Shown here: one piece after another, positions 480 through 43,470 of the stretch
How positions within the stretch are numbered: the first letter of the stretch is position 1
Layout: each line of letters opens with the position of its first letter
Assembly: GCA_018650795.1 (NCBI GenBank)
Contig: JABIFG010000117.1
Location: forward strand, 1 to 50,038
Origin: Fidelibacterota bacterium
GTDB lineage: Bacteria > Fidelibacterota > UBA8477 > JABMPR01
DNA: 50,038 nucleotides
Direction: 5' to 3'
Notes under the pieces: model-generated
The model's database searches: none
Told to the model about the DNA's origin: nothing
What the model saw: the letters and a program-made list of their open reading frames with translations, nothing else
Translations under genes and position numbers: made by a program

Positions 480-717
480 ATATAAAAGCCGCGCAATATA
501 GTCTGACACAATTCCCATGTCAAACCTTAGAGAGGTGAGATTTAACCCTCATTCAAATATTGTCTTCATGCTCAACCAAAATCAAATAATTCTGAGTAAT
601 ATGATATGATATTCGTATTCCTCTTAACCTTTTCATAATTATGTATGTCGAAGGTCCTATGTAACCGATTGAAGGATCCACCTTCTTTACGTGAGTGATT
701 ATACAGGAGTGTCGATT

Positions 718-6679: not shown

Positions 6680-6707
6680 CTTCTAACTTCTAACTTCCAA
6701 CTTCTTA
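6680..6707 (+). repeat. heptamer array, four units, overlapping a stop codon
   Basis: CTTCTAA, CTTCTAA, CTTCCAA, CTTCTTA in perfect 7-nt register. The last unit contains the stop codon of the gene at 6705-9689 (minus strand), so the array abuts and enters the end of the reading frame. Confidence 0.7.
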
Positions 6708-27039: not shown

Positions 27040-28047
27040 ATGAAGAAATTGATCATAATCACTCTCGCTGCAAGTTTGATTGTACAGACTGGTTTTGCTC
27101 AGAATAAAATGGGTCAAACTGGGGCTCAGTTCCTCAGTGTTGCCTCTGATGCCTGGGGTGGAGGCATGGCTGAAGCCATGACGATTATTGAGATGAGGAG
27201 TGCGTCATTGCTCTTTAATCCGGCCGGAATGGCTCGCATGGATGCAACCATCGATGTTATGGCCAGTCAGAATCAATGGATAGCAGATATCACTCACAAT
27301 CTTTTTACGGTAGCTTTTAGTCCTGCTGATGGAAAATATGGTGTTTTTGGTGCCTCGCTAATGACGGTTGACTATGGTGAGATGCAGGGGACCATGGTAT
27401 GGGGGAATGACAAAGGTTATATCGATACAGAAATATTAAACCCCGGCGCCTATGCTGCCGGTGTTGGTTATGCCACAGCACTTAGCGATAAATTTTCAGT
27501 GGGTGGTCAGCTAAAATATATTGGTTTGGATTATGGCAGAAGTGTCTTTCCTGATGAGGATGGCAATGCAGATACGGTGAAAAGCCATATCGCCTTTGCG
27601 AATGCCTTTGATGTTGGCACCATTTTTAAAACAGGCTGGCACAGCCTGGCCTTTGGTATGTCAGTTAGAAATTTTTCTGATGAAGTAAAAATGGAGAAAG
27701 AAAGCTTCCAGTTGCCGCTGACCCTCTCATTAGGTATTGGTATGGATGTTTTTGATTTGTTTCGTGACAGCATGGGCAGTCAACAGCTTCAGGTTGCTGT
27801 GGATGCCCTGCACTATCGCTCGCATCCAGAACAATTGAAAATTGGCATCGAGTATAAACCTGTTGATCTGCTAGCACTTCGAACAGGCTTTTATACAAGT
27901 GAAGATGAGAATACCGGTAGTTTTGACGAGAATGACCTGACTTTTGGGGTGGGCATTCAACAATTCGGTTTAGTGTTTGATTACGCTTACACACCTAAAG
28001 GCGTATGGAATGAAGTACATCGTGTCTCGGCACGATTTTCATTCTGA
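27040..28047 (+). CDS. PorV/PorQ-family outer-membrane barrel (copy A)
   Basis: 335 residues. Signal peptide MKKLIIITLAASLIVQTGFAQ. The mature start GQTGAQFLSVASDAWGGGMAEA and SLLFNPAGMARMD match the PorV/PorQ family (FadL-like barrels; PorV in Bacteroidetes takes part in T9SS cargo release). The C terminus HRVSARFSF ends in an aromatic residue, as barrels do. The frame is open from 27001, but GGAGG sits 8 nt before ATG 27040. It is paralogous to the barrel at 39629: both have YGxMQGTMVWG and NFxLPLT-type segments. The receptor gene follows after 19 nt. Likely an outer-membrane partner of the locus and not a general porin. Confidence 0.85.
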   Translation: MKKLIIITLAASLIVQTGFAQNKMGQTGAQFLSVASDAWGGGMAEAMTIIEMRSASLLFNPAGMARMDATIDVMASQNQWIADITHNLFTVAFSPADGKYGVFGASLMTVDYGEMQGTMVWGNDKGYIDTEILNPGAYAAGVGYATALSDKFSVGGQLKYIGLDYGRSVFPDEDGNADTVKSHIAFANAFDVGTIFKTGWHSLAFGMSVRNFSDEVKMEKESFQLPLTLSLGIGMDVFDLFRDSMGSQQLQVAVDALHYRSHPEQLKIGIEYKPVDLLALRTGFYTSEDENTGSFDENDLTFGVGIQQFGLVFDYAYTPKGVWNEVHRVSARFSF

Positions 28048-28066
28048 GTCTGGGGAGGATAAGATA

Positions 28067-31000
28067 ATGACTTTTGCAAAGAATATTTTAAAAGCTGCTA
28101 TTCTTCTCGCTGCTCTGAACCTCGCTTTTGCAGGTCAGACAGGTAAGATTTCTGGTACCATACGAGATGCCCAGAATGGTGATGCTCTGATAGGTGTCAA
28201 TATCATCGTTGATGAGCTTGGCGTAGGCGCTACTACTGATCTCGATGGTCAATATTACATTCTGAATCTTCCACCTGGATCCTACACTATTCGCTTTTTG
28301 ATGATTGGCTATGGCCCAATTATCAGTGAAGAAGTCCGCGTGGCCATGGATCAGACTACTACGATCAATCATGAGATGAGTTTCAAGGTGTTGGGAGTAG
28401 AAGAAGTCAGAGTCACTGCCACACGTCCCGTTATAGTCAAAGATTTATCTGCCAGCCAAATGTACATAAAGGAAGAAGCCATTGCTGAAATTCCGATTGA
28501 TAATGTGGCCAGTCTGGTTGGTTTGCAGGCAGGAGCCGAAGGGGTTTCAATTCGTGGAGGAGGCAGCGCACAAACTGCATTTATCGTGGATGGTTTCCAA
28601 CTGAATGATGGCCGTTCAAATTTGCCTACATTGGCCCTATCGCTGAGTTCTGTGAAAGAAGTCCAGGTGCAATCTGGTGGCTTCAATGCTGAATATGGTA
28701 ACATCCGATCTGGAATCATTAATGTGATCACAGCTGAGGGTAGTCAAAAAGGATTCGATGGTTCATTTTCATACTATTATTCTCCACCAGCTCCCAAAAA
28801 TTTTGGAATCTCACCATATGATAGCGATGCCTACTATTTAAAACCCTATTTGGATGATGATGTGGCCTGGCTGGGGACCACAGGCGAGAGTTATGAAGAT
28901 TTGAATTCGAACCAGGAATATGATCCTAACGAGCCATTTGATGATTTCAATGGTGACGGGGAATGGACCGGTTGGGACAGCTACACCAGAGCCCAATATG
29001 TGGATTTCGAGGGTTGGAATGCTCGCTCACTGATCACACTTCAAGATGATGATCCAACCAATGATCTAACCCCTGCTGCGGCCCAGCGTGAATTCCTGTG
29101 GAAGCACCGACGAGAAGGCTTTATCACAGAACCTGATTATACCCTCGATTTTGGATTTGGTGGTGGTGTCCCCGGCATGGAATCAATCGGGAATACAAGG
29201 TTTTACCTCAGTCATCGCAGCAAACAGACAAATTTTGTTGTACCCCTGTCACGGGATGCATACACTTCAAATACAACCCGCCTTAAATTGAACTCAAATA
29301 TCTCTAAAAGCATGAAATTGACCACCAGCTTAGCCTATTCAGAGGATCGTTCGGCAAGTACTTATAGCTGGACGACGACACCTACTGGATCGATGGTGAG
29401 CTCAGTCTATAGCGTAGCAAGTCTGGTCAAGGGTGGTAATAACATTCTCTTTATGCCAGCTTATTACAGTCCCGCCGACATTTACCGCACAAACCTGGGC
29501 TTCAAGCTCAATCATATGTTGGATGAGAGCAGCTTCTACGAAGTGGTTTATCAATACTTGAGGAATAAGTATTCAACATTTGCGACTGAAGCTCGCAGTG
29601 ATAGTCTTATTGAAATCTCTCCTGGAGTATGGCGGGATGAAGCCCCTTATGGCTATGATGGAGGAGAGTGGATGAACTTGGGACGCGACAATAGCTTGAT
29701 CCAGAATCATTCATTTAAAATCGATTATACCCGTCAGTTCAATGATAAAAATCAGGTCAAAACGGGCTTTGCCTTAAATTATGCAGACCTGCAGATACGG
29801 TCATCTACCGAAAGTGAAAAAGATACCTGGACAAGAGATCAGATTTATGATCGACCACCCTACAGCATGGCTCTGTATATTCAGGATAAACTAGAATATG
29901 AGGGATTTATTGCCAATATTGGCATACGGGGAGAGCTGAACAACCCCAATGCCCCAATTTATCAGCTTGATGAATATGACCCGACTTTTGGTCAAGGCTA
30001 TGGAGCCGATCTGGAAACGACAGCAGAGACAGAAGAGGCTAAGAGCATCTGGACTTTGAGTCCACGCCTGGGAGTTTCACATCCAATTACGGATCAGTCC
30101 AAACTATACTTCAACTATGGTCATTTCCACTCAGAACCAGCATCATCTTATCGGTTCAGACTCCAACGTGAATCCAATGGGCAAGTTACCTCAATTGGCA
30201 ATCCAAACCTTGAGATGGAACGGACCATTGCATACGAATTGGGATACTCACATAGTATATATGAAACGTATCTTTTGAATGTGGCCACCTATTACAAGGA
30301 TGTATCCAAACAACCTGGGTGGATTACCTATACCAACGTAGGTGGATCAGTTAATTATATCACACCTGAGAATAACAATTATGCGGATATCCGTGGTATT
30401 GAATTCACTCTGTCAAAACTTGAGGGCAAATGGTTTACAGGTTTTGTTAACTACACATATATGGTTCGAACCTCTGGATATTTTGGGTTGCGACACTATT
30501 ATCAGGATCCTATTGAACAGCGCGATTATGAGAACATTAATCCGGTAGAATCAAAGTCAGTACCCACTCCCTATGCCCGCTTGAATATGGTATTTCACAC
30601 ACCGCAAAAATTTGGACCAGGAATAGCTGGTTTCAGACCTCTGGAAGACTGGAGACTGACTCTCCTGACAACTTATCGGGCTGGTTCGACCTGGAATTGG
30701 ACTGAGTCCAACCGTACACGTTACCGTCCCTGGGTTGATACATACAACATGAATAGCAGACTATCGCGAACCTTCAAGACAGATATGGGAGATCTTGAAT
30801 TCTTTATGGATGTCTCCAATGTCCTGAACTCAAAATGGTTGAGCTATTCCGGGTTTGCAGGAAGCAGAGATTGGCAATCCTATAGAGCCTCACTGCATCT
30901 GCCCTGGGAAGAGGGCACGGAGCATGGCAGTGATGAATTGGGTGTCTATAGGTCATGGGACACCGACTATCGACCCATATTTGCAGTTGATAGTATCGGA

Positions 31001-31225
31001 ATCGTCCAGGGTGCACCCCAATCCCATGAGATTTATTGGGACAAGAGTAATGATAGTTACCGAAAGTGGGATGATAGTATAGATGATTGGGATGAAACAC
31101 CTATCAGTCAATCTGACATTGACAAGTTGATTGAAGACAAGGCTTATATTGATATGCCAAATATCCGCTCCATGAGTTTTCTTAATCCTCGCCAGATTAC
31201 ACTTGGCGTAAGAATTAAGTTTTGA
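28067..31225 (+). CDS. TonB-dependent receptor, module A
   Basis: 1052 residues. Signal peptide ending LAFAG, carboxypeptidase-regulatory-like domain (about 24-110, GKISGTIRDAQNGDALIGVNI), plug with SIRGGGSAQTAFIVDGF, long barrel, C terminus ITLGVRIKF. GGGGAGG precedes ATG 28067; an upstream in-frame Met at 27977 lies inside the barrel gene and is rejected. It is a paralog of the receptor at 33512, sharing YLDDDVAW, DPTNDLTPA and NIxGxEF/DIRGxE-type segments. At about residues 275-298 it has an acid loop (EDLNSNQEYDPNEPFDDF followed by NGDGEW) that is absent from the paralog and resembles calcium-binding Dx[DN]xDG loops. It is followed 8 nt later by the FN3 protein gene. No SusD accompanies it. 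Confidence 0.92.
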   Translation: MTFAKNILKAAILLAALNLAFAGQTGKISGTIRDAQNGDALIGVNIIVDELGVGATTDLDGQYYILNLPPGSYTIRFLMIGYGPIISEEVRVAMDQTTTINHEMSFKVLGVEEVRVTATRPVIVKDLSASQMYIKEEAIAEIPIDNVASLVGLQAGAEGVSIRGGGSAQTAFIVDGFQLNDGRSNLPTLALSLSSVKEVQVQSGGFNAEYGNIRSGIINVITAEGSQKGFDGSFSYYYSPPAPKNFGISPYDSDAYYLKPYLDDDVAWLGTTGESYEDLNSNQEYDPNEPFDDFNGDGEWTGWDSYTRAQYVDFEGWNARSLITLQDDDPTNDLTPAAAQREFLWKHRREGFITEPDYTLDFGFGGGVPGMESIGNTRFYLSHRSKQTNFVVPLSRDAYTSNTTRLKLNSNISKSMKLTTSLAYSEDRSASTYSWTTTPTGSMVSSVYSVASLVKGGNNILFMPAYYSPADIYRTNLGFKLNHMLDESSFYEVVYQYLRNKYSTFATEARSDSLIEISPGVWRDEAPYGYDGGEWMNLGRDNSLIQNHSFKIDYTRQFNDKNQVKTGFALNYADLQIRSSTESEKDTWTRDQIYDRPPYSMALYIQDKLEYEGFIANIGIRGELNNPNAPIYQLDEYDPTFGQGYGADLETTAETEEAKSIWTLSPRLGVSHPITDQSKLYFNYGHFHSEPASSYRFRLQRESNGQVTSIGNPNLEMERTIAYELGYSHSIYETYLLNVATYYKDVSKQPGWITYTNVGGSVNYITPENNNYADIRGIEFTLSKLEGKWFTGFVNYTYMVRTSGYFGLRHYYQDPIEQRDYENINPVESKSVPTPYARLNMVFHTPQKFGPGIAGFRPLEDWRLTLLTTYRAGSTWNWTESNRTRYRPWVDTYNMNSRLSRTFKTDMGDLEFFMDVSNVLNSKWLSYSGFAGSRDWQSYRASLHLPWEEGTEHGSDELGVYRSWDTDYRPIFAVDSIGIVQGAPQSHEIYWDKSNDSYRKWDDSIDDWDETPISQSDIDKLIEDKAYIDMPNIRSMSFLNPRQITLGVRIKF

Positions 31226-31233
31226 GGTTCACA

Positions 31234-33351
31234 ATGAAGAAAATGACAATTATTACTTTCTGTCTTACCCTATTTGCTATCAATAGCTATGCTCAGGTCT
31301 CCGGCTCAGAAAAACGTTATCTACGAGTTGGTTCCCTGCAATCACATTTCTCAGCATATGGCTCAGAAAGAGCCTGGACAGGTGCCTATTATGAAGGTTT
31401 ACGCTGGCCAGCCCAATATCCCTATCAAGATAACTCTGTCATTAAGCGTGCCTGGGTTGCCTGTCGGGATTTTGAGGATGAGGAAGGTGTCGACTTCTCC
31501 AGATACGCAGTTTATTTCTATCTTGGTGATGAGGGCATATCTTTGTTTCCAATGGAAATAAAAGAAAGTGCCAAATTTGCTAATCCCAATATTTATGTCG
31601 ATGGAGAAGATTTAACCTCCATCTTTGCCAATGAAATTGATACGCTGGATGAAAACCAGATTCCTGATCGAATCATCACTAATGTGGTCAACACCTCAAT
31701 GGGTCTCACCCAGACTCGTACGGTTCTGGCTTATAGTCAGCAATATCATGACAATTATTTTATCAAGATTTACACCTTTACCAATACAGGTAACATTGAT
31801 TGGGATGCTGATATCGAACTTACAGATTCATTACGTGGGGTTCGGATGGGCTGGGGAACCCGCTACAGTATGGGTCGTGAAACTGCTTCGTATACTGAAG
31901 GGAGTCAATCCTACGGAAAACACAGTTGGGTTACCAGGCGTGGTGAAACTTATGCAGATCACCATCTTGACGCCATTACTGTAGCAGATCCCATCAAAGA
32001 TTGGATCAGAGCTGGATTTTCTTTTCTGGGTCAGTCAAACCTGTTAACCTGGGACAATATTGGTGCTCCTGATGTAAATGGCAGTGGCCGACTGGTTTCG
32101 CCACATCATACTGGATCTGCCATTTTGCATGTTGATGTGAGTGCTTCGGATTCCAGCGATAATATCAATCAGCCGACCTTTTTGGGATGGCATGCTGGCG
32201 ATACCTATCCAGGTGTTGGTTTCCAGCGTGTGGAAGATATTCCAGGGATGACTGCTGTTTACAGCATGCTCAGTGGAAATCCCCATGGTGGAGCTTCCAA
32301 TGGGGGTACCGATCGCATGGATGACCGTTTAACCTCCATTACCCATCGTCTTGATCCATGGACGATTCACGGTGACGGGGGCGGGACCAACGTTATGATG
32401 ACCTATGGTCCATTTGACCTCGCCCATGGAGAGAGCGTCGTTATTATTGAAGCAGAAGGAGTCAGCGGTCTCAATCGTCAAGCGAGTGAAGAGATTGGGG
32501 CAAGATGGCAGCAGGCCTATCAAGATCCATCAGATTCAGGTCCATTTGATTTACCAGATGGGTCAACCACCACTGACAAGGATGAGTACAAAAATTCCTG
32601 GGTCTATACCGGTAAAGACTCCATTATGCTCACATTTAGTCGTGCCTTAAGAAATTTTGACAATGGCTTCGATATTCCCCGAGCTCCACAACCTCCAACA
32701 AGTTTCAATGTTGAGTCTGGTGGAGATCGTATCAGTTTAAGCTGGCTAGCGAGCCCTTCTGAATCCGACCCTGACTTTGCCGGATATCGCATCTTTCGCG
32801 CCATTGGTAAACCTGATACGACTCATGAAGAGATATTTGCCTGTGGAATTGGCACGGATCATCCTGTTATAGATTACTATTTTGATGATACGACGCCTGT
32901 CCGCGGACATGCATATTATTACTACATTGTTGCCTTCAATGATGGTTCAAACAATCAAACTGAAATGAACCCAAAGGGTTCGCTACATAGTGGACGATTC
33001 TATACGCAAACCACAAAATCGGCCGTGCTGAAGCGCAAGGCTGGTAATGATCTGGAATCCATCCGAGTCGTCCCCAACCCATTTAACATTAGACGAAGTG
33101 GTACCAAGCTGGACTACCTGGGAGAGAATAACAAACTCATGTTCCTCGATATTCCTGGCCAGTGCATCATTCGTATTTATACAGAGCGTGGGGATTTGGT
33201 CAAAACTATTGATCATACCGATGGGAGTGGGGATGAAGAATGGAGGGAGATGACTGATTTCAGACAGACTGTCGTGAGTGGCGTCTACCTTGCTCATTTT
33301 GAATTACCCGATGGTCGATCCACCTATCGCAAATTTCTCATTATCAGGTAG
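31234..33351 (+). CDS. secreted FN3 protein with T9SS-like C-terminal domain, module A
   Basis: 705 residues, function unknown. Signal peptide MKKMTIITFCLTLFAINSYA. Residues about 25-480 form a domain I do not recognise, starting RYLRVGSLQSHF and containing SQQYHDNYFI and NSWVYTGKDS, both shared with the protein at 36696. A fibronectin type III domain follows (about 490-590, PPTSFNVESGGDRISLSWLAS). The end, SIRVVPNPFNIRR...GVYLAHFELPDGRSTYRKFLIIR, has the layout of T9SS type A sorting domains. ATG 31234 is preceded by GAGG; the ORF opens slightly earlier at a TTG overlapping the receptor stop. The tight spacing implies a receptor partner exported across the outer membrane. Confidence 0.78.
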   Translation: MKKMTIITFCLTLFAINSYAQVSGSEKRYLRVGSLQSHFSAYGSERAWTGAYYEGLRWPAQYPYQDNSVIKRAWVACRDFEDEEGVDFSRYAVYFYLGDEGISLFPMEIKESAKFANPNIYVDGEDLTSIFANEIDTLDENQIPDRIITNVVNTSMGLTQTRTVLAYSQQYHDNYFIKIYTFTNTGNIDWDADIELTDSLRGVRMGWGTRYSMGRETASYTEGSQSYGKHSWVTRRGETYADHHLDAITVADPIKDWIRAGFSFLGQSNLLTWDNIGAPDVNGSGRLVSPHHTGSAILHVDVSASDSSDNINQPTFLGWHAGDTYPGVGFQRVEDIPGMTAVYSMLSGNPHGGASNGGTDRMDDRLTSITHRLDPWTIHGDGGGTNVMMTYGPFDLAHGESVVIIEAEGVSGLNRQASEEIGARWQQAYQDPSDSGPFDLPDGSTTTDKDEYKNSWVYTGKDSIMLTFSRALRNFDNGFDIPRAPQPPTSFNVESGGDRISLSWLASPSESDPDFAGYRIFRAIGKPDTTHEEIFACGIGTDHPVIDYYFDDTTPVRGHAYYYYIVAFNDGSNNQTEMNPKGSLHSGRFYTQTTKSAVLKRKAGNDLESIRVVPNPFNIRRSGTKLDYLGENNKLMFLDIPGQCIIRIYTERGDLVKTIDHTDGSGDEEWREMTDFRQTVVSGVYLAHFELPDGRSTYRKFLIIR

Positions 33352-33511
33352 GATTTATCGAAATCTGGTAGTTAATAAAGTTTATGTATTAACCGAATGT
33401 GGTTTATATTCGGGCAAGAAAATAGTTAGGAAAAAGTTTTTGGAGTTCCGCTTTAATGTTGACGAATTATAAAATTTGTGTTCAAAAGCATTATAAATCG
33501 AGGATTAGGAA

Positions 33512-36500
33512 ATGAAGAAGCTGTATAGCCTGTTGCTCTTGTGTTTGTTAAGCACAGCAACACTTGCATCAACGACTGGAAAAATCACTGGTATTATCAC
33601 AGATAATGAATCAGGAGAACCGCTCATTGGTGTGAACGTCATTATTAGCGAATTAGGGATTGGTGCTGCGACAGACTTTAATGGGTACTTCGCAATTCTT
33701 ACTGTACCACCAGGCGCCTACTCTCTTGCTGCAAATTATATAGGATATGCCACGGTTACTTACAGTGATGTTCAGGTGAGAATTGATTTGAACACGACAC
33801 AGAACTTTGCATTAACCAGTCTTGCTCTCGAAGGGGAGGAAGTTGTTATTGTAGCGACAAAACCTGTCGTGCAACAGGATGTGGCATCAAGTCAACGTCA
33901 CCTGAGTGCAGATGAGATAGTTGATATGCCTATTAATAGCGTCAATGATGTTATCGGTCTCCAGGCAGGTATTGAAGGCATGGCCATCCGTTTTGGTGGG
34001 GAGGACGAACTGGTTCTCATGATGGATGGAATTACGTTAAAAGATGATCGTACTGGTAAACCGGTATCTGGTATCCCACTGAGTTCTGTGAAAGAAATCA
34101 TGGTGCAGTCGGGTGGTTTTAATGCTGAATACAGCGATCTTCAATCAGGTCTGGTTAATGTGGTGACTCGTGAAGGTGGTAAGGAAAGTTATTCCATGAG
34201 TTTCTCTTATCGTTATAGTCCGCCAACACCCAAACATTTTGGCATGTCTCTATTTGACGAGGATGCCTATTTTATGCGACCTTATCTGGACGACGATGTT
34301 GCCTGGACTGGAACGGACAATGGAACCTGGGATCAGTACACTCAGGACAGGTATCCCACATTTAGTGGCTGGAACAAAGTTTCTGAACAACTTCTGTCCG
34401 ATGAAGATCCCACCAATGATTTAACTCCTGCAGGTGCCAAACGACTGTTTGAATGGCAAGTTCGACGTGACGGTGAAATAACCAAACCAGATTATTCTAT
34501 AGATGCTGGTTTTGGGGGTCCTGTTCCCGGTATCAGCAAAGCCCTGGGGAATATGAGATTTTTTGCATCCTACAATAGCAATCAGAATATGTACCTCACG
34601 CCCATGTCGCGGGATGCTCACCGTGATTGGCTTGGAACTCTGAAAGTCACTTCAGACATTAATACCAAAAGCAAGCTATCCGTTACTGCCTTAAGGAAAG
34701 GGGTTACCGCATCCACATCAAGTGGTACGGGGCAGCCAGATATTTTTAGCAGTATATGGGGCATTGCCAGTGTATTTGGTACCAATTCTCAACAATCATG
34801 GAAGCTTCTATATCCTGACTACTATTGTCTAACAGATATCAATACCAATTTGTATTCTGCGAAGCTTACCACCCTTATTAATACCAATTCTTATTACGAG
34901 GGTATCGTTGAGTATTCGAAAACAAGTTACGATACTAATCCTGGAGAGCGGCGTGATACGACCCTGTATGATATATTTCCTGGAGCTGATGAATTTTTAA
35001 CAGATGAAGGACCATTTGGATTTGATGATGGTACTTCAGCATCTGTAGCTGGCATATTCTCAATGGGACTTAAGAGTAACTCCAGAGATACCTCAAGTAC
35101 ATCACGATTCAAGGCCAAACTCGATTACACCAACCAGGTCAATCAGCATAATCAAATTAAGACTGGTGTTCAGTTTGAATATTTTAACTATAACATGAAT
35201 TACGGCGCCATAAATCCTGTTTTACCAGTAGGTAGACCATATAGTACCTGGGAGCGCAGCCCCTATCAAATGGGCATCTATGTTCAAGATAAACTTGAGT
35301 TTGATGGTTGGATTGCCTCCATCGGTGTGCGCGCTGAATACTTCGACCCCAATACAGAGTGGTACGATGTGGATGATTATGATGACGTCTTTTTCTCTTC
35401 GAATTATAGCGATGGTATCGAGGATGATATCCCCACAAAAAAGGCCAAGGGTACGCTGACTTTCCTCCCTAGAATTGGTATTTCGCATCCCATCTCTATA
35501 AACTCAAAATTGTATTTTAATTATGGTCATATGCGCCAGAAGTTTAGTCCGGATGAACTCTTTGGCGTACGTCGGGTAACAGGCGGGGAAATGTCAACCT
35601 TTGGTGATCCCGAACTTCCCATGGAGAAGACAGTGTCTTTTGAACTGGGATACGACCATTCATTGTTCGACCAGTACCTGATTCACATTTCGGCCTATTA
35701 CAAGGATAAATCGGATCAATCCTCAACCATCGGTTTTGAAAGTAACACAGTGGACTATTCCCGTTATGCAGCCATCTTCTACCAGGATATTCGTGGGCTT
35801 GAGATTGACGTGCGGAAGAGTCGGGGAGAATGGATTACTGCTTTTGCTAACTATACTTATGCCATTTATAGCTCGGGACGATTCGGTGTGCGTAATTTTT
35901 TCCTAAATCCGGCAGATCAGCGTGAAGAAGAAGCTAATTATGCCAGACAAACGCAATACAAACCCTTACCACGACCCCGTGCGAACTTCAACCTCTCTTT
36001 CCATACACCTAATCACTTCGGACCCACCATTGCAGGGGATAAAATTCTTAGTGATTGGCACGCCTCATTTAATGGCAGTTGGAAAGCGGGTGCCTTTGCC
36101 ACATATGGAAATGTTGCCGGTATAGATAACAATGTACGCTGGAAAGATACATACAACGTTAATGGCAAGCTTTCCAAGACCTATCACATGGGAAACGTGA
36201 ATATCACCTTCCTGGCTGAAGCATTCAACCTCTTTAATTTCAAACACTTTTCAACAGCTTCAATGGCCACTGGCCAAAATTATGTTGACTACAAAGAGTC
36301 ACTTCATTTTGGTGAAGAAGTTTACGATGAACTTGGTTTCAACCATATCAGTGGTGATGATCGCTTAGGTGATTATAGACCTCTGGACATCGATTATCAG
36401 GCCATGGATTTTCAATATTCCGCTTATGCTGAAGATGGATCTGCTCTGGGTGGTATTGAGAATATATACTACTGGATCGAAGAAGAGAACATGTACATGA

Positions 36501-36661: not shown

Positions 36662-36695
36662 TTCAACTGTATTGAGAATTATTCAAGGAATTCAA

Positions 36696-38909
36696 ATGAA
36701 ACGAAATCTATCAAGAATCAAGATCGGCAGCTCATCAAGTTTGGTGATGCTCGTACTGATCCTTGCATTTGTAAGCCTGAACTTTGCCGCTGAATTCCGG
36801 TGGATCAAGGTAGGCAGCTTACACAACTTCTATCAGGCCATTGGATCAGAACCGGAAGAAGATGTTGGTTCCGAACAGCAGTTTGGAATGCGCTGGAACG
36901 CATTTTACGATCATCAGGATATGCAGGCCGCCAAAGGCATGTGGATTGCTGTCGCTAACTATGAAGATCCCGTAGCCAATGCAACTTTTGAATATAAGAT
37001 TGCCCATTGTGGACCACGTCCACGTCCTGAAATCGCAGCCAATGAATTCATGCCCTCAGCTTTTGGGATGACTGGAAAATTTGCAGCTCCAACCATTATC
37101 GTGGATGGAGAGCTGGCTTCAGACCTGGATTGGGATGATCTTGTTGATGAAGGTGGTTATGATGTATTTCAAAAGGCTGATCGCCAGATTTACAATTCTG
37201 TCAACACTTCAACTGGAATTTCATTCGATAGAAATATATATGCCTTCAGTCAGCAGTATTATGACAATTTCTTCATATATGAATACACCTTTGTAAATAC
37301 TGGCGTAGTTAGTCTGGATGAAACTATCTCCCATGACAACACCCTTGAAGGTGTATATTTTCACTGGCAGTTCCGTAATGCTGTAGCCGGCGAAGGTACT
37401 GTTGAAGGTTCAGTTATTGATTGGCGTGGCCGCAGAGGCTGGGGAACTCCTCAAAATTGTCGCTGGGGTATGAATACCATGAACAGCGTTATCGGCGAGG
37501 ATCCAGACAATCCAGTGACAACTTCAATGTTCGCCGACGAATACGGGCGCATGGGCATAGATGAATTCGACTATGACAATGAATCGATGCGCGCTTATTA
37601 CAGTTGGCATGGACGTCATTCCACATTGAGTTATGATAATATCGGATCGCCGAATTATCAAGGCTGGCTGGCTGATGGTATGTTGGGTGCTTCTCAATTC
37701 ATGGGTGCTGTAGTCTTACATGCCGATATGTCTACCAGCGATAATTCAGACAATGTCTACCAACCAACCACCACTCAAAAAATTGAATCCAATGATGCTG
37801 AAACGGTAAACAACAATCAATTCAGTAGTGCTCGAATGGAGAGAGGCTATACTCAATTCGTGGCTGCCGGTCATGAGCCTCTAAATCATGCTGAACAGGT
37901 AAAATCACAAAACCAGTTCCCAGATCAATTTTCCGTTGCAGGTGGCTATTCTCAGACTTGGTCCTTTGGGCCATATACCATGGCTCCTGGCGATACAGTT
38001 CGTATTGTGGTAGCTGAAGCTGCGGCTGGATTAAGTCGTGAGATGAATCAAAAAGTTGGTAATACCTGGTTTCGTCATGTTGCTTTAGGTGAAACACCAA
38101 CAGCTGAAATGCCTGATGGATCAAGTAAAACACTCGCTAGCGTTTCTGATGCAACTGAGTATAAGAATTCATGGGTATATACAGGTCGTGATAGTCTTAT
38201 GGAAAGCTTCCGTCGAGCTAGATTCCTGTATAAGAATGGTCTGGATATGGGTAGCATGACACCTCCAGATCCACCACAATCCTTTGAAGTGACTTCTCAA
38301 GGCAACAGGATATTCTTGACCTGGTCTGAGAATGCCTCCTTAACACATGCAAATTTTGAAGGATACAAGCTATACCGTGCCAAGGGTCAGTATGACTCAA
38401 CATACTACGAAATAGCTGATTTGAATGAATCAGACGGTTCACTTGCACATGAATATTCAGATATGTCTGCTGAGCGCGGTCAGTTGTATTTCTATTACAT
38501 CGTTTCCTACGATGATGGAACAACTAATGTACTTGAACCAGGTACAGCTTTACACAGTAGCCCTTTCTATACCAGAACCAATAAGGGCGCATCAATGCTG
38601 AAACCACCAGCAGAGAATATTGATAATGTGGTTATTGTTCCAAATCCATATGTGATCTCAAATAATACACTCCAGTATGTGGGTGAGCAGAACAGTATCA
38701 AATTCTGGAATTTGCCCAGCGCTTGTGAGATCAATATCTTCACCGAACGCGGGGATAAGATTTATACTTATGAACATGAGGGGAGTGGTGTTGCAAGTTG
38801 GAATCTTATGACCTCATCTCGCCAGATTATCGTGAGTGGTGTCTATATTGCAACATTTGAGACACCAGATGGTGATAAAGCAATCAAAAAATTTGTAGTC
38901 ATTCGCTAA
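36696..38909 (+). CDS. secreted FN3 protein with T9SS-like C-terminal domain, module B
   Basis: 737 residues, paralog of the protein at 31234. The N-terminal hydrophobic segment SSLVMLVLILAFVSLNFAA is a signal peptide. Shared landmarks are KVGSLHNFYQ, VNTSTGISFDRNIYAFSQQYYDNFFIYEYTF, YSWHGR...LSYDNIGSPN, HADMSTSDNSDN and NSWVYTGRDS. An FN3 domain follows (PPDPPQSFEVTSQGNRIFLTWSEN) and then the C-terminal domain with NVVIVPNPYV and GVYIATFETPDGDKAIKKFVVIR. The proline-asparagine-proline core departs from YPNPFNP, so export by T9SS is probable but not certain. ATG 36696 has AGGA 7 nt upstream. It is cotranscribed with the receptor (34 nt) and the lipoprotein gene (32 nt). Confidence 0.78.
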   Translation: MKRNLSRIKIGSSSSLVMLVLILAFVSLNFAAEFRWIKVGSLHNFYQAIGSEPEEDVGSEQQFGMRWNAFYDHQDMQAAKGMWIAVANYEDPVANATFEYKIAHCGPRPRPEIAANEFMPSAFGMTGKFAAPTIIVDGELASDLDWDDLVDEGGYDVFQKADRQIYNSVNTSTGISFDRNIYAFSQQYYDNFFIYEYTFVNTGVVSLDETISHDNTLEGVYFHWQFRNAVAGEGTVEGSVIDWRGRRGWGTPQNCRWGMNTMNSVIGEDPDNPVTTSMFADEYGRMGIDEFDYDNESMRAYYSWHGRHSTLSYDNIGSPNYQGWLADGMLGASQFMGAVVLHADMSTSDNSDNVYQPTTTQKIESNDAETVNNNQFSSARMERGYTQFVAAGHEPLNHAEQVKSQNQFPDQFSVAGGYSQTWSFGPYTMAPGDTVRIVVAEAAAGLSREMNQKVGNTWFRHVALGETPTAEMPDGSSKTLASVSDATEYKNSWVYTGRDSLMESFRRARFLYKNGLDMGSMTPPDPPQSFEVTSQGNRIFLTWSENASLTHANFEGYKLYRAKGQYDSTYYEIADLNESDGSLAHEYSDMSAERGQLYFYYIVSYDDGTTNVLEPGTALHSSPFYTRTNKGASMLKPPAENIDNVVIVPNPYVISNNTLQYVGEQNSIKFWNLPSACEINIFTERGDKIYTYEHEGSGVASWNLMTSSRQIIVSGVYIATFETPDGDKAIKKFVVIR

Positions 38910-38941
38910 GGGTGATTGGACCCAACGGAGGATTTTTAGAA

Positions 38942-39598
38942 ATGATGAAGTGGAATCAATATTTAAAGGGTGTGATTGGCTTACTAATTGTTAGTCTGGT
39001 ATTCATTACCTGTGAAGATTTCGATGACGAAAAATATGAGTTAAGCGCTCTGGATGAAGCCGCTGTTTCTTCCATGGCAGACACCCTCGAAAATAGTTTG
39101 CTAATGAGAAGTGCTGCCATTTATGATGATGGAACCAATCTGGGCGTTCGTCTTGTTGGAGGAGGCACTGATACCATAATCATGGCAGTCGATACCAGCG
39201 GGTTAGAGCTTATCGATATTTATAATGCTTTGGGAACTGCAGGACGTGGACCTTTTGCAGTGAACGATACAGCATTTGTCACTAGGCTCTCAGCTGACAG
39301 CCTGTCATTTCGTTTATTGTCTGCTACGAGTGCTGGAACCTATGTCATTTACCTAAACCACCATGCTCAACCCAGTATTTTTGAAGAAAATTCAGGAAGC
39401 ATGCTGAGAGTTGAGTTGGAATCAGATGATATGACTCCCGAATTGGTGGCCAGCTTATACAGTTTACCTGGTCCAGTACCAGTTATTAAAGGCAGATACG
39501 AGTTTGAACTTGCAGCTGGTACTTATTTGTTTGAGTTAGCTCGCATGGAAGCCACCACATTGGATGATTTTCGCGTCGTCCTTATGCGCGAACAATAA
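38942..39598 (+). CDS. lipoprotein of unknown family
   Basis: 218 residues. The signal ends LVFITC with cysteine 24 as the lipid site, then an acidic stretch EDFDDEKYELSALDEAAVS. I recognise no domain; the rest looks beta-rich and soluble. Start ATG 38942 (a second ATG follows) comes after GGAG. It sits between the module B FN3 gene and the PorV-like gene with gaps of about 30 nt, so it is almost surely part of that operon. By position it could play the role SusD plays in polysaccharide loci, but it shares no visible motif with SusD and is far shorter. This is inference from context only. Confidence 0.7.
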   Translation: MMKWNQYLKGVIGLLIVSLVFITCEDFDDEKYELSALDEAAVSSMADTLENSLLMRSAAIYDDGTNLGVRLVGGGTDTIIMAVDTSGLELIDIYNALGTAGRGPFAVNDTAFVTRLSADSLSFRLLSATSAGTYVIYLNHHAQPSIFEENSGSMLRVELESDDMTPELVASLYSLPGPVPVIKGRYEFELAAGTYLFELARMEATTLDDFRVVLMREQ

Positions 39599-39628
39599 AA
39601 TGATCAATCGCTAAGGGACATGATGATT

Positions 39629-40633
39629 ATGAAGAACAAACTACTAGCAATTCTAATGACCCTGCTTCTTTCAAGTACGGCGTTTGCAGAATTTACAAAA
39701 CTGGCCCAAACAGGTTTTCAGTTCCTCAGTGTCATCTCTGATGCTAGAGGAGCTGCTCTTGCAGGCGCCATGACCACCATACCTTACGGATCGAGTTCTC
39801 TCTTTTTTAATCCTGCCGGTATGGCCAAAATGGAAGGTAGAGTTGATATCGTAGCCAGTAAGAACACCTGGATTGCAGATATCAATCATACCACATTGAG
39901 TCTGGCCTTCAATCCCGCCCAGAATAGGTATGGAGTGTTTGGATTTACGGCTCAATCTGTGAACTATGGGGATATGCAGGGCACCATGGTTTGGGGTCAC
40001 GAACCTGGCTGGATTGAAACACATACCATCCAACCATCTGCCCTCAGTCTGGGGTTTGGTTATGCAGTTAACTTATCTGATAGATTCTCCATTGGCTCTC
40101 AGGTTAAGTATGCTGCCCAGCAATTGGGTGGTGCCGTTGTGGAAATTCACCCGACCCAGGCAGATGTTGAAGATAGCCTTTCCGTTCAGAAGTTTTCTAC
40201 CTCGGCCATCGCATTTGATTTTGGAACCTTATTCAATACAGGATTCAAAGGAATTTCCTTTGGAATGAATGTGAGAAATTTTTCCAACGAAGTGGCTTAT
40301 CTGGAAGAAAATTTTCAATTGCCACTCACATTTACTATGGGATTGTCCATGGATTTGATCGATCTGATTCCAAATTTTTCTAATGCTCACTCTTTATTGA
40401 TGAGTGTGGATGCAGTTCATTCACGATCCTATCCTGAGTATCTGAATGTTGGTTTGGAATATAAACTTTTGGATATGCTCTATTTTAGATATGGGTACCT
40501 GAACAATCGCGATGAGAGAGCTTCTTCCTTTGGCTTTGGCGTCTCACGTTTTGGTTTGGGTGTTGATTACGCGTATATACCTTTCGGAATACTGGACGAA
40601 GTTCAGATGATAACCGTAAGATTTACATATTAG
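39629..40633 (+). CDS. PorV/PorQ-family outer-membrane barrel (copy B)
   Basis: 334 residues from this ATG. Signal peptide MKNKLLAILMTLLLSSTAFA, then QTGFQFLSVISDARGAALAGAMT and SLFFNPAGMAKMEGR, typical of PorV/PorQ. It is paralogous to the barrel at 27040 (YGDMQGTMVWG, VRNFSNEV, LSMDLIDL). Three in-frame ATGs occur (39620, 39623, 39629); AAGGGA at 39613-39618 fits the third, which also gives the best signal peptide. Copy B keeps the RGAALAGAMT segment close to the family, while copy A has WGGGMAEAMT. It probably helps release or attach the sorting-domain proteins of the same locus. Confidence 0.85.
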   Translation: MKNKLLAILMTLLLSSTAFAEFTKLAQTGFQFLSVISDARGAALAGAMTTIPYGSSSLFFNPAGMAKMEGRVDIVASKNTWIADINHTTLSLAFNPAQNRYGVFGFTAQSVNYGDMQGTMVWGHEPGWIETHTIQPSALSLGFGYAVNLSDRFSIGSQVKYAAQQLGGAVVEIHPTQADVEDSLSVQKFSTSAIAFDFGTLFNTGFKGISFGMNVRNFSNEVAYLEENFQLPLTFTMGLSMDLIDLIPNFSNAHSLLMSVDAVHSRSYPEYLNVGLEYKLLDMLYFRYGYLNNRDERASSFGFGVSRFGLGVDYAYIPFGILDEVQMITVRFTY

Positions 40634-40669
40634 ACAAATGGTCTGTGTAGGATTTGGAGATTTAATATT

Positions 40670-41944
40670 ATGAGAATACAAAATTTATTCAGTTGCTTAA
40701 TCGTTGGCCTCGTTCTCATTGGGGGTATTGGCTGTGAATACGACGATTATCCTGATCCTGTCTGGGATCCAAATGATGAGGGTGGAGCAGCACCAGTAAT
40801 CACTTCTATGGATCCTGCGGATGTGGCCTATGATGGTCTCACCGTAGTAACCATTAACGGGGAGAATTTCTCACCCACACTCACACAGAATCAGGTCACT
40901 TTCAATGGTGTTGTTGCTGAAATTGATATGGACCTTTCTACAGCAGCCCAATTGGTTGTAACCATGCCCGTTGTGATAACTGACGCTGCTTTAAATGCGA
41001 TTAGCGCTGTCCAGGTAATGGTCGCCGTTCAAGGTGCCTACGCTGGTGCAGTCTATGCCCAGGATTTTAGCATTGAGCGTGCTGTGATTGAGTGGGGCGG
41101 ATTCATCGGAGAAAAACCTGAAAAGCTCCCAAATGCTATTGCCGTTGATGCCGATGAGAACGTTTATGTAGCGGCTGGTGATAAAATCTTGTACAAGCTG
41201 GATACGCTGGGTGTCCGGTCAGAGTTTGGTACTGGCTTAAGCTCTGTCACCAATGACTTGAAAATTGGTCCTGGTGGAAACGCCTATTTTGCCAGAAATA
41301 ATCCCTATGTTTACCGCATTGACGTTGCAGGCGGCGCTGCAGATCGCTGGCACAGGGTCGGTTCAAAAATAGCCTGTTTTGATTTCAATGTAGATCAGAA
41401 CATCTATTGCGGTGGTAAAAATGATTCTTTGTATTTTGTTGATGTAACTGCTGAGACAAATCGAGGTGTCGCCTTTTCCGATGAGTACATCTACACAAGT
41501 TTGCGGGTTTACGATGGCTATGTTTACGTTGCAGGTGTTTATGATGGAGATGACACTGCAGTGACAGTCACTCAGGCAATCTGGCGTCACGAAATTTTAG
41601 CTGGAGATGAGTTGGGACCAAGGGAATTGGTCTACGATTGGGCTGATTATGAGTATTCCGAAGAACAGAATATCCTTAGCATGATCGTGAATTCCGATGG
41701 GCTTTTCTATATCGGTGTGAGCGAGGGCACTGGACCAGCTATTATTAATATTAATTTTGGGACGCAGAGTGTGGAACCATTTTATAATGCTGTCCTAACC
41801 TCTCCGGCAACAAGTTTAACCTGGGGTAACAGTAATTATATCTATTGTGTACGCACAATGGTAGCCTCTACTGATGACTTGCCAACAGGGGCGTTTCGCA
41901 TTGCACAATCTTTAACGAGTGCGCTATATTATGGGCGCAATTAG
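40670..41944 (+). CDS. lipoprotein with IPT/TIG domain and beta-propeller-like repeats
   Basis: 424 residues. The signal ends GGIGC (cysteine 22). An IPT/TIG immunoglobulin-like domain is visible at about 40-125 (APVITSMDPADVAYDGLTVVTINGENFSP). From about 145 to the end are repeated segments such as PNAIAVDADENVYVAAGDKILYKLD, LKIGPGGNAYFARN and LSMIVNSDGLFYIGV, as in NHL/SMP30-like propellers. These are typical extracellular recognition domains. It follows the PorV-like gene by 36 nt and ends the tightly spaced run; a leader hairpin separates it from the next gene. The role is probably binding at the cell surface. Confidence 0.78.
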   Translation: MRIQNLFSCLIVGLVLIGGIGCEYDDYPDPVWDPNDEGGAAPVITSMDPADVAYDGLTVVTINGENFSPTLTQNQVTFNGVVAEIDMDLSTAAQLVVTMPVVITDAALNAISAVQVMVAVQGAYAGAVYAQDFSIERAVIEWGGFIGEKPEKLPNAIAVDADENVYVAAGDKILYKLDTLGVRSEFGTGLSSVTNDLKIGPGGNAYFARNNPYVYRIDVAGGAADRWHRVGSKIACFDFNVDQNIYCGGKNDSLYFVDVTAETNRGVAFSDEYIYTSLRVYDGYVYVAGVYDGDDTAVTVTQAIWRHEILAGDELGPRELVYDWADYEYSEEQNILSMIVNSDGLFYIGVSEGTGPAIININFGTQSVEPFYNAVLTSPATSLTWGNSNYIYCVRTMVASTDDLPTGAFRIAQSLTSALYYGRN

Positions 41945-41970
41945 AAAAAAAACAGTAACTCAATTCATGT

Positions 41971-41993
41971 GCTAAACATCAGAAATGTTTGGC
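41971..41993 (+). promoter_or_regulatory. leader hairpin before the sorting-domain protein gene
   Basis: GCTAAACAT (41971-41979) pairs with ATGTTTGGC (41985-41993), nine pairs including one G-T, loop CAGAA. It stands 12 nt upstream of the AGGAGG site of the gene at 42017. It may protect the mRNA or tune expression. Confidence 0.4.
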
Positions 41994-42016
41994 TATACAA
42001 AACTAGGAGGTATTAC

Positions 42017-43348
42017 ATGAAGAGAACGGTAACTATGATGTTAATTCTTTGTCTATTTGCTTTTACAGCATATGGCCAATATTGGGGTGGTTGGACCGGT
42101 GGATTAGGTACAGCAGACGCTGATACATTACCAGCATATGGACAGGGAATGGCCGTAGATGGTGCCGGTAAGATCTGGTACACATCTTATTACAGCTCAG
42201 AAACAGTCATGGTGGATACTGGCAGTGGTACTGCGGATGATGCACAAAACGTTCGTGCAATCTATGTATTCAATCCTGATGGAACTCCAGCCAGTTTTTC
42301 ACCAATCACTGAATTGTCGGTTGATGGTGTGAATGATACGCTTTGGAATTCAAATCGTGGTCTGAGAACTGACCATAATGGTGATATTATCGCTGGCTCA
42401 TGGTGTATGTATTATCGCATAAACCACTTAACTGGTGAAGGTATGGATAAATTAACTCCTTTCCCAACGGCTGATCCAGATGATAGCCCGTGGGATGGTG
42501 AGTCCATTACGGCTGCTGCTGTTGACGCTGATGGTAACATGTACTGTAACGCTGTTGTTGCCAGTGTTGGAGCAATCAAGGCTTTTGATCCAGATTGGGA
42601 ATTGATAGATGACTTGGTACCTGCTGACGTGCTCGGTGGCTACTCACGTACTATTGAAGTTGCCTCAGACGGAAGTGCAGTATATCACTGTAACTTCACA
42701 GGTGCTTTTGGACTCGTACGTTTTAACAGTAGTTCAGGCGATGTCTATGGTGATTTCACAGCTGATGTCGATTCCTTATTTCCAGGTCTCTCCGTAGAGG
42801 CTACAGGCTGGGATCCAGCTGGTCGTCTCTGGGTAGGTAACACAGCTGGTGCAGCTTTTACAAATTGCGCTTTTTATGCTTTTGACCCTACTACTGAAAC
42901 TATGGTAGACAGCTTTATTATTGGTGCATCCCACGTTGCTATGGGTATCAAACCCCGTGGTATTGACTTTGCCGCTGATGGCAACACTGCTTATGTAACA
43001 TATTACAATAGCTGGGATAACGATGCTATCTACAAGATTGAAAAAGATGTTGCTGGCGTGTGGTCACATACAGGTACAATGATCAGTGGCTATGCTCTTA
43101 AAGCTAACTATCCAAATCCCTTCAACCCAAGCACAAAGCTTGATGTTGTGATGAAGGATGGTGGCGTAGCAGATCTTCGCATCTACGATATGCGCGGAGC
43201 TGAAGTTGCTGTATTGAACAACAACTATCTCTCAGCTGGCGAACATACATTCACATTTAATGCTGCTGACTTTGCAGCTGGTGTGTATATCGCTAAATTT
43301 ACTGCTAATGGAGCCATGTATACTCAAAGCATGACTTTGGTTAAGTAA
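42017..43348 (+). CDS. secreted beta-propeller protein with T9SS type A sorting domain
   Basis: 443 residues. Signal peptide (MKRTVTMMLILCLFAFTAYGQ), a propeller-like body with repeated GMAVDGAGKIWYTSYY, AAAVDADGNMYCNAVV and GWDPAGRLWVGNTAG, and a textbook C-terminal sorting domain: LKANYPNPFNPSTKLDVV, then DLRIYDMRGAEVAVL and FAAGVYIAKFTANGAMYTQSMTLVK. In T9SS bacteria this domain directs passage across the outer membrane and is removed by the sortase-like PorU. ATG 42017 follows AGGAGG by 6 nt; the frame is open from 41969. A strong terminator at 43371-43398 ends the transcript. The body resembles that of the lipoprotein at 40670. Confidence 0.9.
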   Translation: MKRTVTMMLILCLFAFTAYGQYWGGWTGGLGTADADTLPAYGQGMAVDGAGKIWYTSYYSSETVMVDTGSGTADDAQNVRAIYVFNPDGTPASFSPITELSVDGVNDTLWNSNRGLRTDHNGDIIAGSWCMYYRINHLTGEGMDKLTPFPTADPDDSPWDGESITAAAVDADGNMYCNAVVASVGAIKAFDPDWELIDDLVPADVLGGYSRTIEVASDGSAVYHCNFTGAFGLVRFNSSSGDVYGDFTADVDSLFPGLSVEATGWDPAGRLWVGNTAGAAFTNCAFYAFDPTTETMVDSFIIGASHVAMGIKPRGIDFAADGNTAYVTYYNSWDNDAIYKIEKDVAGVWSHTGTMISGYALKANYPNPFNPSTKLDVVMKDGGVADLRIYDMRGAEVAVLNNNYLSAGEHTFTFNAADFAAGVYIAKFTANGAMYTQSMTLVK

Positions 43349-43370
43349 TTAGCCGTTATTGTTTGAAGAA

Positions 43371-43398
43371 GGGGCTGTTAATTCAGCCCCTTTTTTTT
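43371..43398 (+). terminator. Rho-independent terminator
   Basis: GGGGCTG (43371-43377), loop, CAGCCCC (43384-43390), then eight T (43391-43398). It closes the surface-protein operon after the gene at 42017. Confidence 0.93.
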
Positions 43399-43470
43399 CG
43401 TTATTTTTAAGTACCATATTTTTTCAACTTAATGCATGTAAATTGTTGAGTGAAAATATTGGAGTCCCAA

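Follow-up and report, generated by a model that had tools for sequence, protein, structure and literature searches.

A recurrent cassette of TonB receptor, T9SS-tailed cargo and PorV-family barrel in a Fidelibacterota bacterium and its relatives: a candidate SusCD-like importer

A 50,038-nucleotide stretch of DNA (the window) from the 4.42 Mb, 91% complete assembly of a Fidelibacterota bacterium (GCA_018650795.1) carries, in one run, two copies each of a TonB receptor, a secreted FN3 protein and a PorV/PorQ-family outer-membrane barrel. All of the genes described here lie on the + strand. The first barrel (PorV_A, 27040-28047) is followed by TonB-dependent receptor A (28067-31225), which contains a carboxypeptidase-regulatory-like domain, plug and barrel (PF13715, PF07715 and PF14905, all above cut-offs), and by secreted cargo A (ORF 31222-33351), which has a signal peptide, a body of ~450 amino acids, an FN3 domain found by PDB sequence search, and a C-terminal tail (33019-33351). 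The second set comprises TonB-dependent receptor B (33512-36661; PF13715 above cut-off, and resemblance to receptor A), secreted cargo B (ORF 36672-38909; tail 38577-38909), a small putative lipoprotein (38912-39598; lipobox-like FITC near residue 31-34) and PorV_B (39620-40633). ATG starts at 31234 and 36696, adopted earlier for the two cargo genes, are plausible within these ORFs. Further downstream are a putative lipoprotein with a TIG domain (40670-41944; PF01833, 34.4 bits, cut-off 20.9), a secreted protein with an ordinary type A T9SS tail (41969-43348) and a GHL10 glycosyl-hydrolase-like protein, also with a type A tail (43450-46596; PF02638, 131.7 bits; PF18962, 36.8 bits), whose membership of the module is uncertain.

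A sequence-only reading of the window had reported three families, each present twice, and the genes are indeed found where it placed them, with identities between copies of 38% end to end for the receptors, 33% over their length for the FN3 cargo proteins and 47% for the barrels. The two lipoproteins that it named, at 38912 and 40670, carry lipobox-like motifs and are putative, and the product that it regarded as a T9SS-sorted propeller, a putative fold, does have a type A tail (PF18962, 30.5 bits against Pfam's 27). Its statement that there was no enzyme set holds only in part, as the T9SS-tailed GHL10 protein starts ~100 bp past the end of that range. In phmmer searches against relatives, homologues of the small lipoprotein, the TIG-domain protein and the type A-tailed protein occurred in 23, 66 and 39 of 77 related loci, respectively.

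Both barrels scored above the cut-off of the PorV/PorQ family (NF033709, 173.8 bits for PorV_A and 169.4 for PorV_B; curated cut-off 90). Neither reached the cut-off for PorV proper (NF033710, 82.2 and 59.6 bits; cut-off 250) or PorQ proper (NF033711, 60.2 and 82.3 bits; cut-off 220), and three other cassette PorVs also fell under these equivalog cut-offs.

A T9SS-like C-terminal domain, overlooked in the earlier reading, is also present at the end of both FN3 proteins. The tails of the cargo proteins form a distinct T9SS-like class, here called c2; cargo A and cargo B scored 128.4 and 126.2 bits with the c2 model and 0 with that of the ordinary type A tails (c1). Among solved structures the best relative of the c2 profile was PorZ (E 1.5e-5), followed by PorU (0.045). 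NCBIfam PorZ was matched by 14 of 18 c2 tails, a likeness not exclusive to c2, as ordinary tails matched PorZ in 7/18 cases and PorU in 17/18. Cargo B itself gave a weak PorZ-tail match (E 3.4e-5), and the tail of cargo A matched no NCBIfam model. The type A cargo model TIGR04183 (domain cut-off 23 bits) gave no match to cargo A and a sub-threshold 18.4 bits for cargo B; at E 0.01 or better, weak matches to it were found for 13/18 c2 tails and 18/18 ordinary tails. Neither type B (TIGR04131; PMC12618676) nor type C (NF033708) was among the NCBIfam families matched by the 18 c2 tails at E 0.01, in a library presumed to hold TIGR04131. In the wide sense the cargo proteins are predicted T9SS substrates: the genome encodes the translocon (SprA, 731.7 bits summed; cut-off 200), an N-terminal hydrophobic stretch was recognised by eye, and the tail is related to those of PorZ and PorU. 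The predicted structure of cargo A (AF2, pLDDT 93.0) showed, in fold searches with its ~450-residue body, a remote beta-supersandwich similarity to carbohydrate proteins (TM 0.25-0.38 to query, rmsd 8-21 Å).

The locus is not an isolated duplication. The same assembly contains 12 further cassettes outside the window, in which a receptor is followed by a secreted cargo and then by a PorV paralogue, and the three-gene set occurs ~14 times in this genome when the window copies are counted. Spacing is tight, at -52 to +34 bp between receptor and cargo (14 cassettes) and -4 to +32 bp between cargo and PorV (the 12 non-window cassettes). Cassettes were also found in relatives (Neomarinimicrobiota, KSB1, Calditrichota and Ignavibacteriae), where receptor, cargo and PorV are again linked, as the earlier reading had suggested checking. 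Loci retrieved with PorV as the query are biased for linkage because PorV was itself the query, and linkage was instead assessed in a sample of 40 regions picked by the c2 tail (at least 5 of the 40 lie on contigs equal in length to those of the PorV-query loci, so the two sets overlap). There, each of the 42 c2 proteins had a PorV paralogue in its same-strand run, directly downstream in 39 cases. The c2 model catches ordinary tails too at E 0.001 (120/120 genomes), and presence of c2 was therefore scored at a best E of 1e-19 or better, which was reached in 115/120 genomes; another c2 search, at E 1e-15, gave 79/148. As far as the literature was searched, the module as such was not found described.

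Receptor and cargo are matched strictly. Among 80 neighbouring receptor-cargo pairs, 31 were A-A, 49 were B-B and none was mixed (clade support: TA 1.0, TB 0.901, CA 1.0; the CB clade used for the counts has 63 tips and node support of 0.115, its inner 62-tip node 0.998). The two copies in the window thus represent old, co-inherited subtypes with their own clades in relatives, which rules out a simple tandem duplication and agrees with the earlier reading on this point. The two checks which that reading had proposed, linkage in related genomes and trees of the copies, thus both turned out in its favour. The PorV barrel follows the A/B split loosely: the 72 next-neighbour cargo-to-PorV pairs comprised 14 CB-PB, 8 CA-PA, 10 CB-PA, 37 CB-other and 3 CA-other. 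Many loci combine two receptor-cargo pairs with a single PorV and so depart from a one-to-one ratio of barrel to cargo. In mirror trees of 13 cassettes from this genome, correlations were 0.85 for receptor/body, 0.82 for receptor/tail, 0.80 for body/PorV, 0.73 for receptor/PorV and 0.65 for tail/PorV, each at the permutation floor (p 0.0002). Co-evolution with PorV specific to the tail was sought in these trees and none was seen, since the tail/PorV value was lower than the body/PorV value. The three genes form a set of constant order, found repeatedly within genomes and across several phyla, whose members have diverged together.

The tail class goes with this context. One cargo body was followed through 56 relatives in 120 genomes: copies behind a receptor had c2 tails and no c1 tails (43/43 readable), and copies outside the cassette had c1 tails and no c2 tails (5/5 judgeable). 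The ordinary-tailed copies come from three lineages, occupy three separate places in the tree and have no PorV nearby. The first selection of such solo bodies was partly steered by where the match ended, which might favour ordinary tails; all 53 matches to the body were then scored, and the separation of c2 from c1 by receptor context remained. The tail therefore switches to the ordinary type when the same body occurs outside the cassette.

The genes around the cassettes include those for GH5, GH16, GH13, GH63-like, GH2, GH31 and GH92 enzymes, a sulfatase, a sugar kinase and a hybrid two-component regulator, and no clear glycan enzyme was found among the tested neighbours of 7 of the 12 non-window cassettes. 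The absence of SusD, noted earlier for the locus, extends genome-wide for PF07980: this genome gave no match while the control, Bacteroides ihuae, did, and matches were found in 0/19 genomes of the genus (this one and 18 congeners) and 30/120 in the phylum. An uptake locus with an overlooked SusD is thereby ruled out for that family.

These observations are best explained, with a probability of about 0.55, by a SusCD-like importer in which the T9SS exports the surface partner and a dedicated PorV barrel, rather than a lipid anchor, holds it. All three functions in this model, namely export, tethering and uptake, are inferred. Each cassette would specify one outer-membrane nutrient import unit, most likely for a glycan. 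The cargo would first pass Sec and next the SprA translocon of the T9SS, from which the PorV-family barrel of the same cassette would receive it via the c2 tail and retain it at the surface, much as PorQ holds PorZ and PorV holds PorU, leaving the tail uncut. The cargo body, at or over its partner receptor, would present substrate, doing the job of the SusD lid by another route; the least certain step is that the cargo binds substrate and touches the receptor. The earlier proposal of an uptake or surface-assembly system, in which receptors work with proteins exported by a PorV-dependent route, is consistent with the data, and the tail class makes it more specific; what it described at one locus is a recurrent cassette, several copies of which have glycan-use neighbours.

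Alternatively, the PorV paralogue could be a dedicated shuttle for export only. A PorU-type sortase would then cleave the cargo and either attach it to LPS or release it; the cargo would be an enzyme or adhesin rather than a lid, and the receptor would import independently. Canonical PorV is described as a shuttle (PMC5562754), the genome has five Peptidase_C25 matches, and the TIGR04183 matches noted above show the c2 tails to be T9SS-CTD-like. However, a second tail class would be needless for this purpose, as this genome is already rich in ordinary tails (24 of them, against 15 c2 tails, in the fetched regions), and the strict subtype matching argues for a relation between receptor and cargo; this explanation is considered unlikely. 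The barrel might instead be a FadL-like uptake channel for small products, with nothing more than co-regulation within one nutrient locus joining cargo, receptor and barrel. PorV is in the FadL superfamily, and the cassette PorV profile matches CymD, TbuX and TodX (E 2e-8 to 4e-5); its best match, however, is F. johnsoniae PorV itself (E 1.1e-29), a channel does not explain the linkage to the cargo tail class, and ordinary-tailed copies of the same body lack a nearby PorV; this reading is improbable. Least probable is surface assembly or signalling, with a secreting or signalling receptor and a cargo that builds a surface layer: large all-beta secreted proteins with FN3 domains and two lipoproteins in the same run would suit it, but the genome's sole STN signalling domain lies on a different contig (C277), ruling out an STN-type signalling receptor here, several cassettes have glycan-use neighbours, and a comparable triplet in Rhodothermus marinus sits in an alginate locus, according to passages of PMC9530828.

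The cassettes may offer an alternative to SusC and SusD, from which better-known bacteria build their nutrient importers. PorV has so far been treated as a single shared shuttle for type A cargo; the PorV-family barrels here comprise numerous paralogues, each next to a single cargo that has a tail class of its own. A tentative proposal, put at somewhat less than even odds, is a further architecture for TonB-driven uptake: where SusD proteins are few or missing among FCB-group phyla, glycans would mainly be imported by receptor-lid pairs in which the T9SS secretes the lid and a private PorV paralogue anchors it non-covalently, by way of a retained tail that forms a separate class, the shuttle family having radiated into sockets for surface proteins. 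Cognate PorV-like barrels that handle a CTD have been hypothesised (PMC10202324) to protect it from cleavage. The natural swaps between c2 and ordinary tails make that hypothesis testable, because the tail class switches when a cargo leaves the cassette and paralogous barrels each stand beside their own cargo.

Several known systems share parts of this arrangement. At the gene level, the R. marinus alginate locus has a TonB receptor, a T9SS-tailed protein and a PorV/PorQ protein adjoining alginate lyases; the relevant passages (PMC9530828) list these as genes rather than as a module. In the PorQ-PorZ and PorV-PorU attachment complex, as in the proposed cassette, a PorV/PorQ-family barrel holds a T9SS-exported protein with a retained CTD at the surface; the tails of PorU and PorZ are reported to stay in place, bound to PorV and PorQ, respectively (PMC10202324; PMC5562754). 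The c2 tails are nearest to that of PorZ among solved structures, and by analogy may be retained. Those complexes are single-copy parts of the secretion machine, whereas in the cassettes such pairs exist as numerous paralogues, each accompanied by a TonB receptor and with a cargo body that resembles neither PorZ nor PorU. Type B CTD cargo is described as having cognate PorP/SprF shuttles (PMC12618676; PMC9143113); there too, the gene for a private barrel directly follows that for its cargo, which the barrel may anchor. The cassette differs in its barrel family (PorV/PorQ), its tail class (c2 is not type B) and the presence of a TonB receptor. The BtuB-BtuG vitamin B12 importers pair a TonB receptor with a non-SusD surface lid in a pedal-bin-like manner, but BtuG, unlike the cassette cargo, is a lipoprotein, and the abstract of PMC10404256 mentions no T9SS tail or PorV partner.

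The SusCD/RagAB importers of the Bacteroidota also resemble the cassette. SusD has an alpha-helical lipoprotein fold. RagB has been called a '4-TPR lid'. There too, a TonB receptor with an N-terminal carboxypeptidase-regulatory-like domain stands beside one large surface partner, pairing is strict, copies are many per genome and loci include glycoside hydrolases. The window receptors nevertheless score far under the SusC/RagA cut-off (TIGR04056, 52.8 and 62.9 against 368.25 bits), their partner is a mostly beta, T9SS-tailed protein rather than an alpha-helical SusD lipoprotein, and the cassette adds a PorV barrel.

The run of genes at 27040-43348, all on the + strand, comprises PorV_A, receptor A, cargo A, receptor B, cargo B, a small putative lipoprotein, PorV_B, a TIG-domain putative lipoprotein and a protein with an ordinary (type A, c1) T9SS tail; next, from 43450, is a GHL10 glycosyl-hydrolase-like protein, also ordinary-tailed. 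The A and B copies of the TonB receptor (38% identity), the secreted FN3 cargo (33%) and the PorV/PorQ-family barrel (47%) are clearly homologous. The closest relatives that have a name belong to Candidatus Neomarinimicrobiota, with PorV_B 82% identical in two of the fetched loci (L057 and L058).

The set recurs across the source assembly (4.42 Mb in 355 contigs, estimated completeness 91%). A PorV/PorQ-family model gave 22 matches, read as 21 ORFs, and when cargo A served as query its C-terminal part was matched immediately upstream of many of them. Annotation of 19 fetched regions revealed 12 loci outside the window with the order receptor, cargo (666-1290 aa), PorV, on contigs C37, C103, C120, C132 (cut by the contig end), C138 (two), C178, C212 (two), C305, C306 and C354; the window, with PorV_A first, departs from this commoner order. 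Receptor and cargo are separated by -52 to +34 bp (14 cassettes), and cargo and PorV by -4 to +32 bp (the 12 non-window cassettes). Fourteen of the 21 PorV-family ORFs lie in cassettes, including the window's, two begin at contig starts (C334 and C335), and five are non-cassette (C69, a second on C178, two on C309, and C269).

Several further features were also recorded. C334 and C335 (L045 1-8000 and L046 1-8000) each start within a PorV gene, at an identical base, and share downstream gene order (sugar kinase-like, ABC permeases) with diverged sequence; they are either paralogous operons or strain variants that assembly has separated. A larger PorV-like barrel (505-514 aa) follows a cassette in both L043 (4299-5843, -) and L044 (5137-6654, -), the former matching BamG weakly (33.8 bits against a cut-off of 250). 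The 439-aa protein on C69 (L035 10307-11626, +) is closest to canonical PorV (202.5 bits, cut-off 250) and adjoins an ordinary-tailed protein of inactivated M6 type. In the window itself, a further TonB-receptor-like ORF (691-3186), matching the receptor model built here, precedes a protein of 271 aa whose start resembles a lipobox (3195-4010), and annotation of that region found no adjoining PorV or cassette-type (c2) cargo. A single ORF at 6705-9689 (-) couples the N- and C-domains of a GH3 glycosidase to a beta-lactamase-type serine hydrolase domain located after them.

The cassette cargoes carry a distinct tail, designated c2. All 14, and one cargo-like protein on C201, scored 57-128 bits with the c2 model and 0-23 bits with the ordinary-tail model, whereas the fetched regions' remaining 24 T9SS-tailed proteins showed the reverse; as the models were built partly from the scored proteins, this split displays two classes and is not independent proof of them. 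Against NCBIfam (E 0.01), c2 tails matched PorZ in 14/18 cases, TIGR04183 in 13/18 and PorU in 8/18; the figures for ordinary tails were 7/18, 18/18 and 17/18, respectively. Among solved structures, the c2 profile best matched PorZ (E 1.5e-5), then PorU (0.045), while ordinary tails matched FlgD first and, after it, CTDs including that of gingipain; PorZ reached 0.011.

In 77 named loci fetched with PorV as query, the cargo body (the part preceding FN3 and tail) was present on 103/103 c2 proteins and 0/53 ordinary-tailed proteins. A receptor lay within 300 bp of 91 of the c2 proteins, the remaining 12 being near a locus end, and of three ordinary-tailed proteins; 21 of the latter lay within 2.5 kb of PorV, as same-locus neighbours. 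Because PorV had been the bait, regions were re-picked by c2 match alone: 19 genomes of the phylum supplied 20, and 20 genomes from the phylum to which the genome of locus L099 belongs supplied the other 20. These 40 regions held 42 c2 proteins (one, in L218, behind shadow ORFs). PorV was directly downstream (≤1.5 kb) of 39, 37 of which also had a receptor directly upstream; for the other three (L189, L191, L220) PorV was elsewhere in the same-strand run. Among the 36 ordinary-tailed proteins in these regions, PorV was directly downstream of 0/28 judgeable cases and a receptor directly upstream of 0/16. Small genomes of one genus (G006, G028, G036, G064, G087, G098, G102 and G115; 0.8-1.0 Mb) still had 2-4 tail matches each, only weak ones in G064 and G087.

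Receptor and cargo trees each contained A and B clades, and adjacent receptor-cargo pairs were A-A (31) or B-B (49), never mixed. Distances among all parts of 13 own-genome cassettes were correlated with or without the window trio (r 0.65-0.89; p at most 0.0014, 5,000 permutations). These sequence comparisons indicate that the A and B copies are inherited as sets. PorV follows the split more loosely, and in many loci a single PorV accompanies two receptor-cargo pairs.

A protein on C289 is 56% identical to cargo A and has an ordinary tail (90.5 bits versus 17.7 for c2); the 19-kb stretch retrieved contains neither a receptor nor PorV. All 53 matches, from 47 of the 120 genomes searched for the body, were examined and yielded 56 body proteins. 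Forty-six lay behind a receptor (43 c2, three with tails cut by a contig end), eight clearly lacked one upstream (five ordinary tails, two cut, one tailless), and for two the contig ended before the upstream region (one ordinary tail and one c2). All readable cases among the 56 obeyed the rule that tail follows context. Ordinary-tailed copies fell in three places in the body tree: L176a inside the B clade (support 0.988), L051/L174/L175 next to the A group of the window (0.886, and 0.986 at the next node outward) and L177/L178 at a deeper position. Outside the cassette the body thus has a different tail, a change that apparently occurred more than once. In L175 (4038-8570, -) and L176 (3127-7743, -), cargo-like bodies sit within ordinary-tailed proteins of 1510 and 1538 aa, outside any cassette.

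A confident AlphaFold2 model of cargo A (pLDDT 93.0, pTM 0.89) comprised the body, an FN3 domain and a C-terminal beta-sandwich; its top Foldseek match was PorZ, over ~140 columns. The body alone (pLDDT 94.1) matched 33 chains at E 0.001 or better, titled as GH94-type phosphorylases, cyclic glucan synthase, dextran dextrinase, exo-arabinanase, GH116 enzymes and mutarotase/epimerase proteins, which are carbohydrate proteins with a beta-supersandwich type of fold; the YidC periplasmic domain came close behind. Since TM-scores were low (0.26-0.38) and rmsd high (8-21 Å), the modelled likeness is a lead rather than an assignment.

Pfam matches near own-genome cassettes included GH5+CBM6 and GH16 (C306), GH13 (C120), GH63-like and GH2 (C305), a weak GH141 and a sulfatase (C138), and MFS (C178) and TRAP (C103) carriers; C334 gave an ABC sugar-type permease. 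Among the hand-chosen proteins tested, no clear glycan enzyme was found near the C37, C103, C132, C178, C212 (both) and C354 cassettes. Ten hand-chosen proteins from relatives' loci included GH31, two GH2, GH13, GH92, an FGGY kinase and a hybrid two-component regulator. SusD (PF07980) was detected in 30/120 genomes of the phylum, 0/19 of this genus and 6/27 genomes behind loci from other groups. The genome encodes SprA and five Peptidase_C25 matches, and its sole STN domain lies elsewhere.

The linkage, order, recurrence, co-inheritance, tail class and tail switch observed here are consistent with an importer of SusCD type whose partner would be exported by the T9SS and held by PorV. The cargo would be exported by the T9SS and keep its tail, by which the PorV-family barrel might tether it; the cargo could then contact the receptor, and the cassette would presumably take up a glycan. 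Published accounts describe the tails of PorZ and PorU as retained and bound by PorQ and PorV (PMC10202324, PMC5562754, PMC8545088). Every principle of the cassette has a precedent: private shuttle-cargo pairs in type B cargo with PorP/SprF (PMC12618676), tails retained on PorV/PorQ barrels, and a lid other than SusD in BtuG (PMC10404256). The triplet is listed in the R. marinus alginate locus and, in the portion of that source available, is not described as a unit (PMC9530828). As far as the searched literature goes, what appears to be new is the combination, the scale on which it occurs and the switch of tails.
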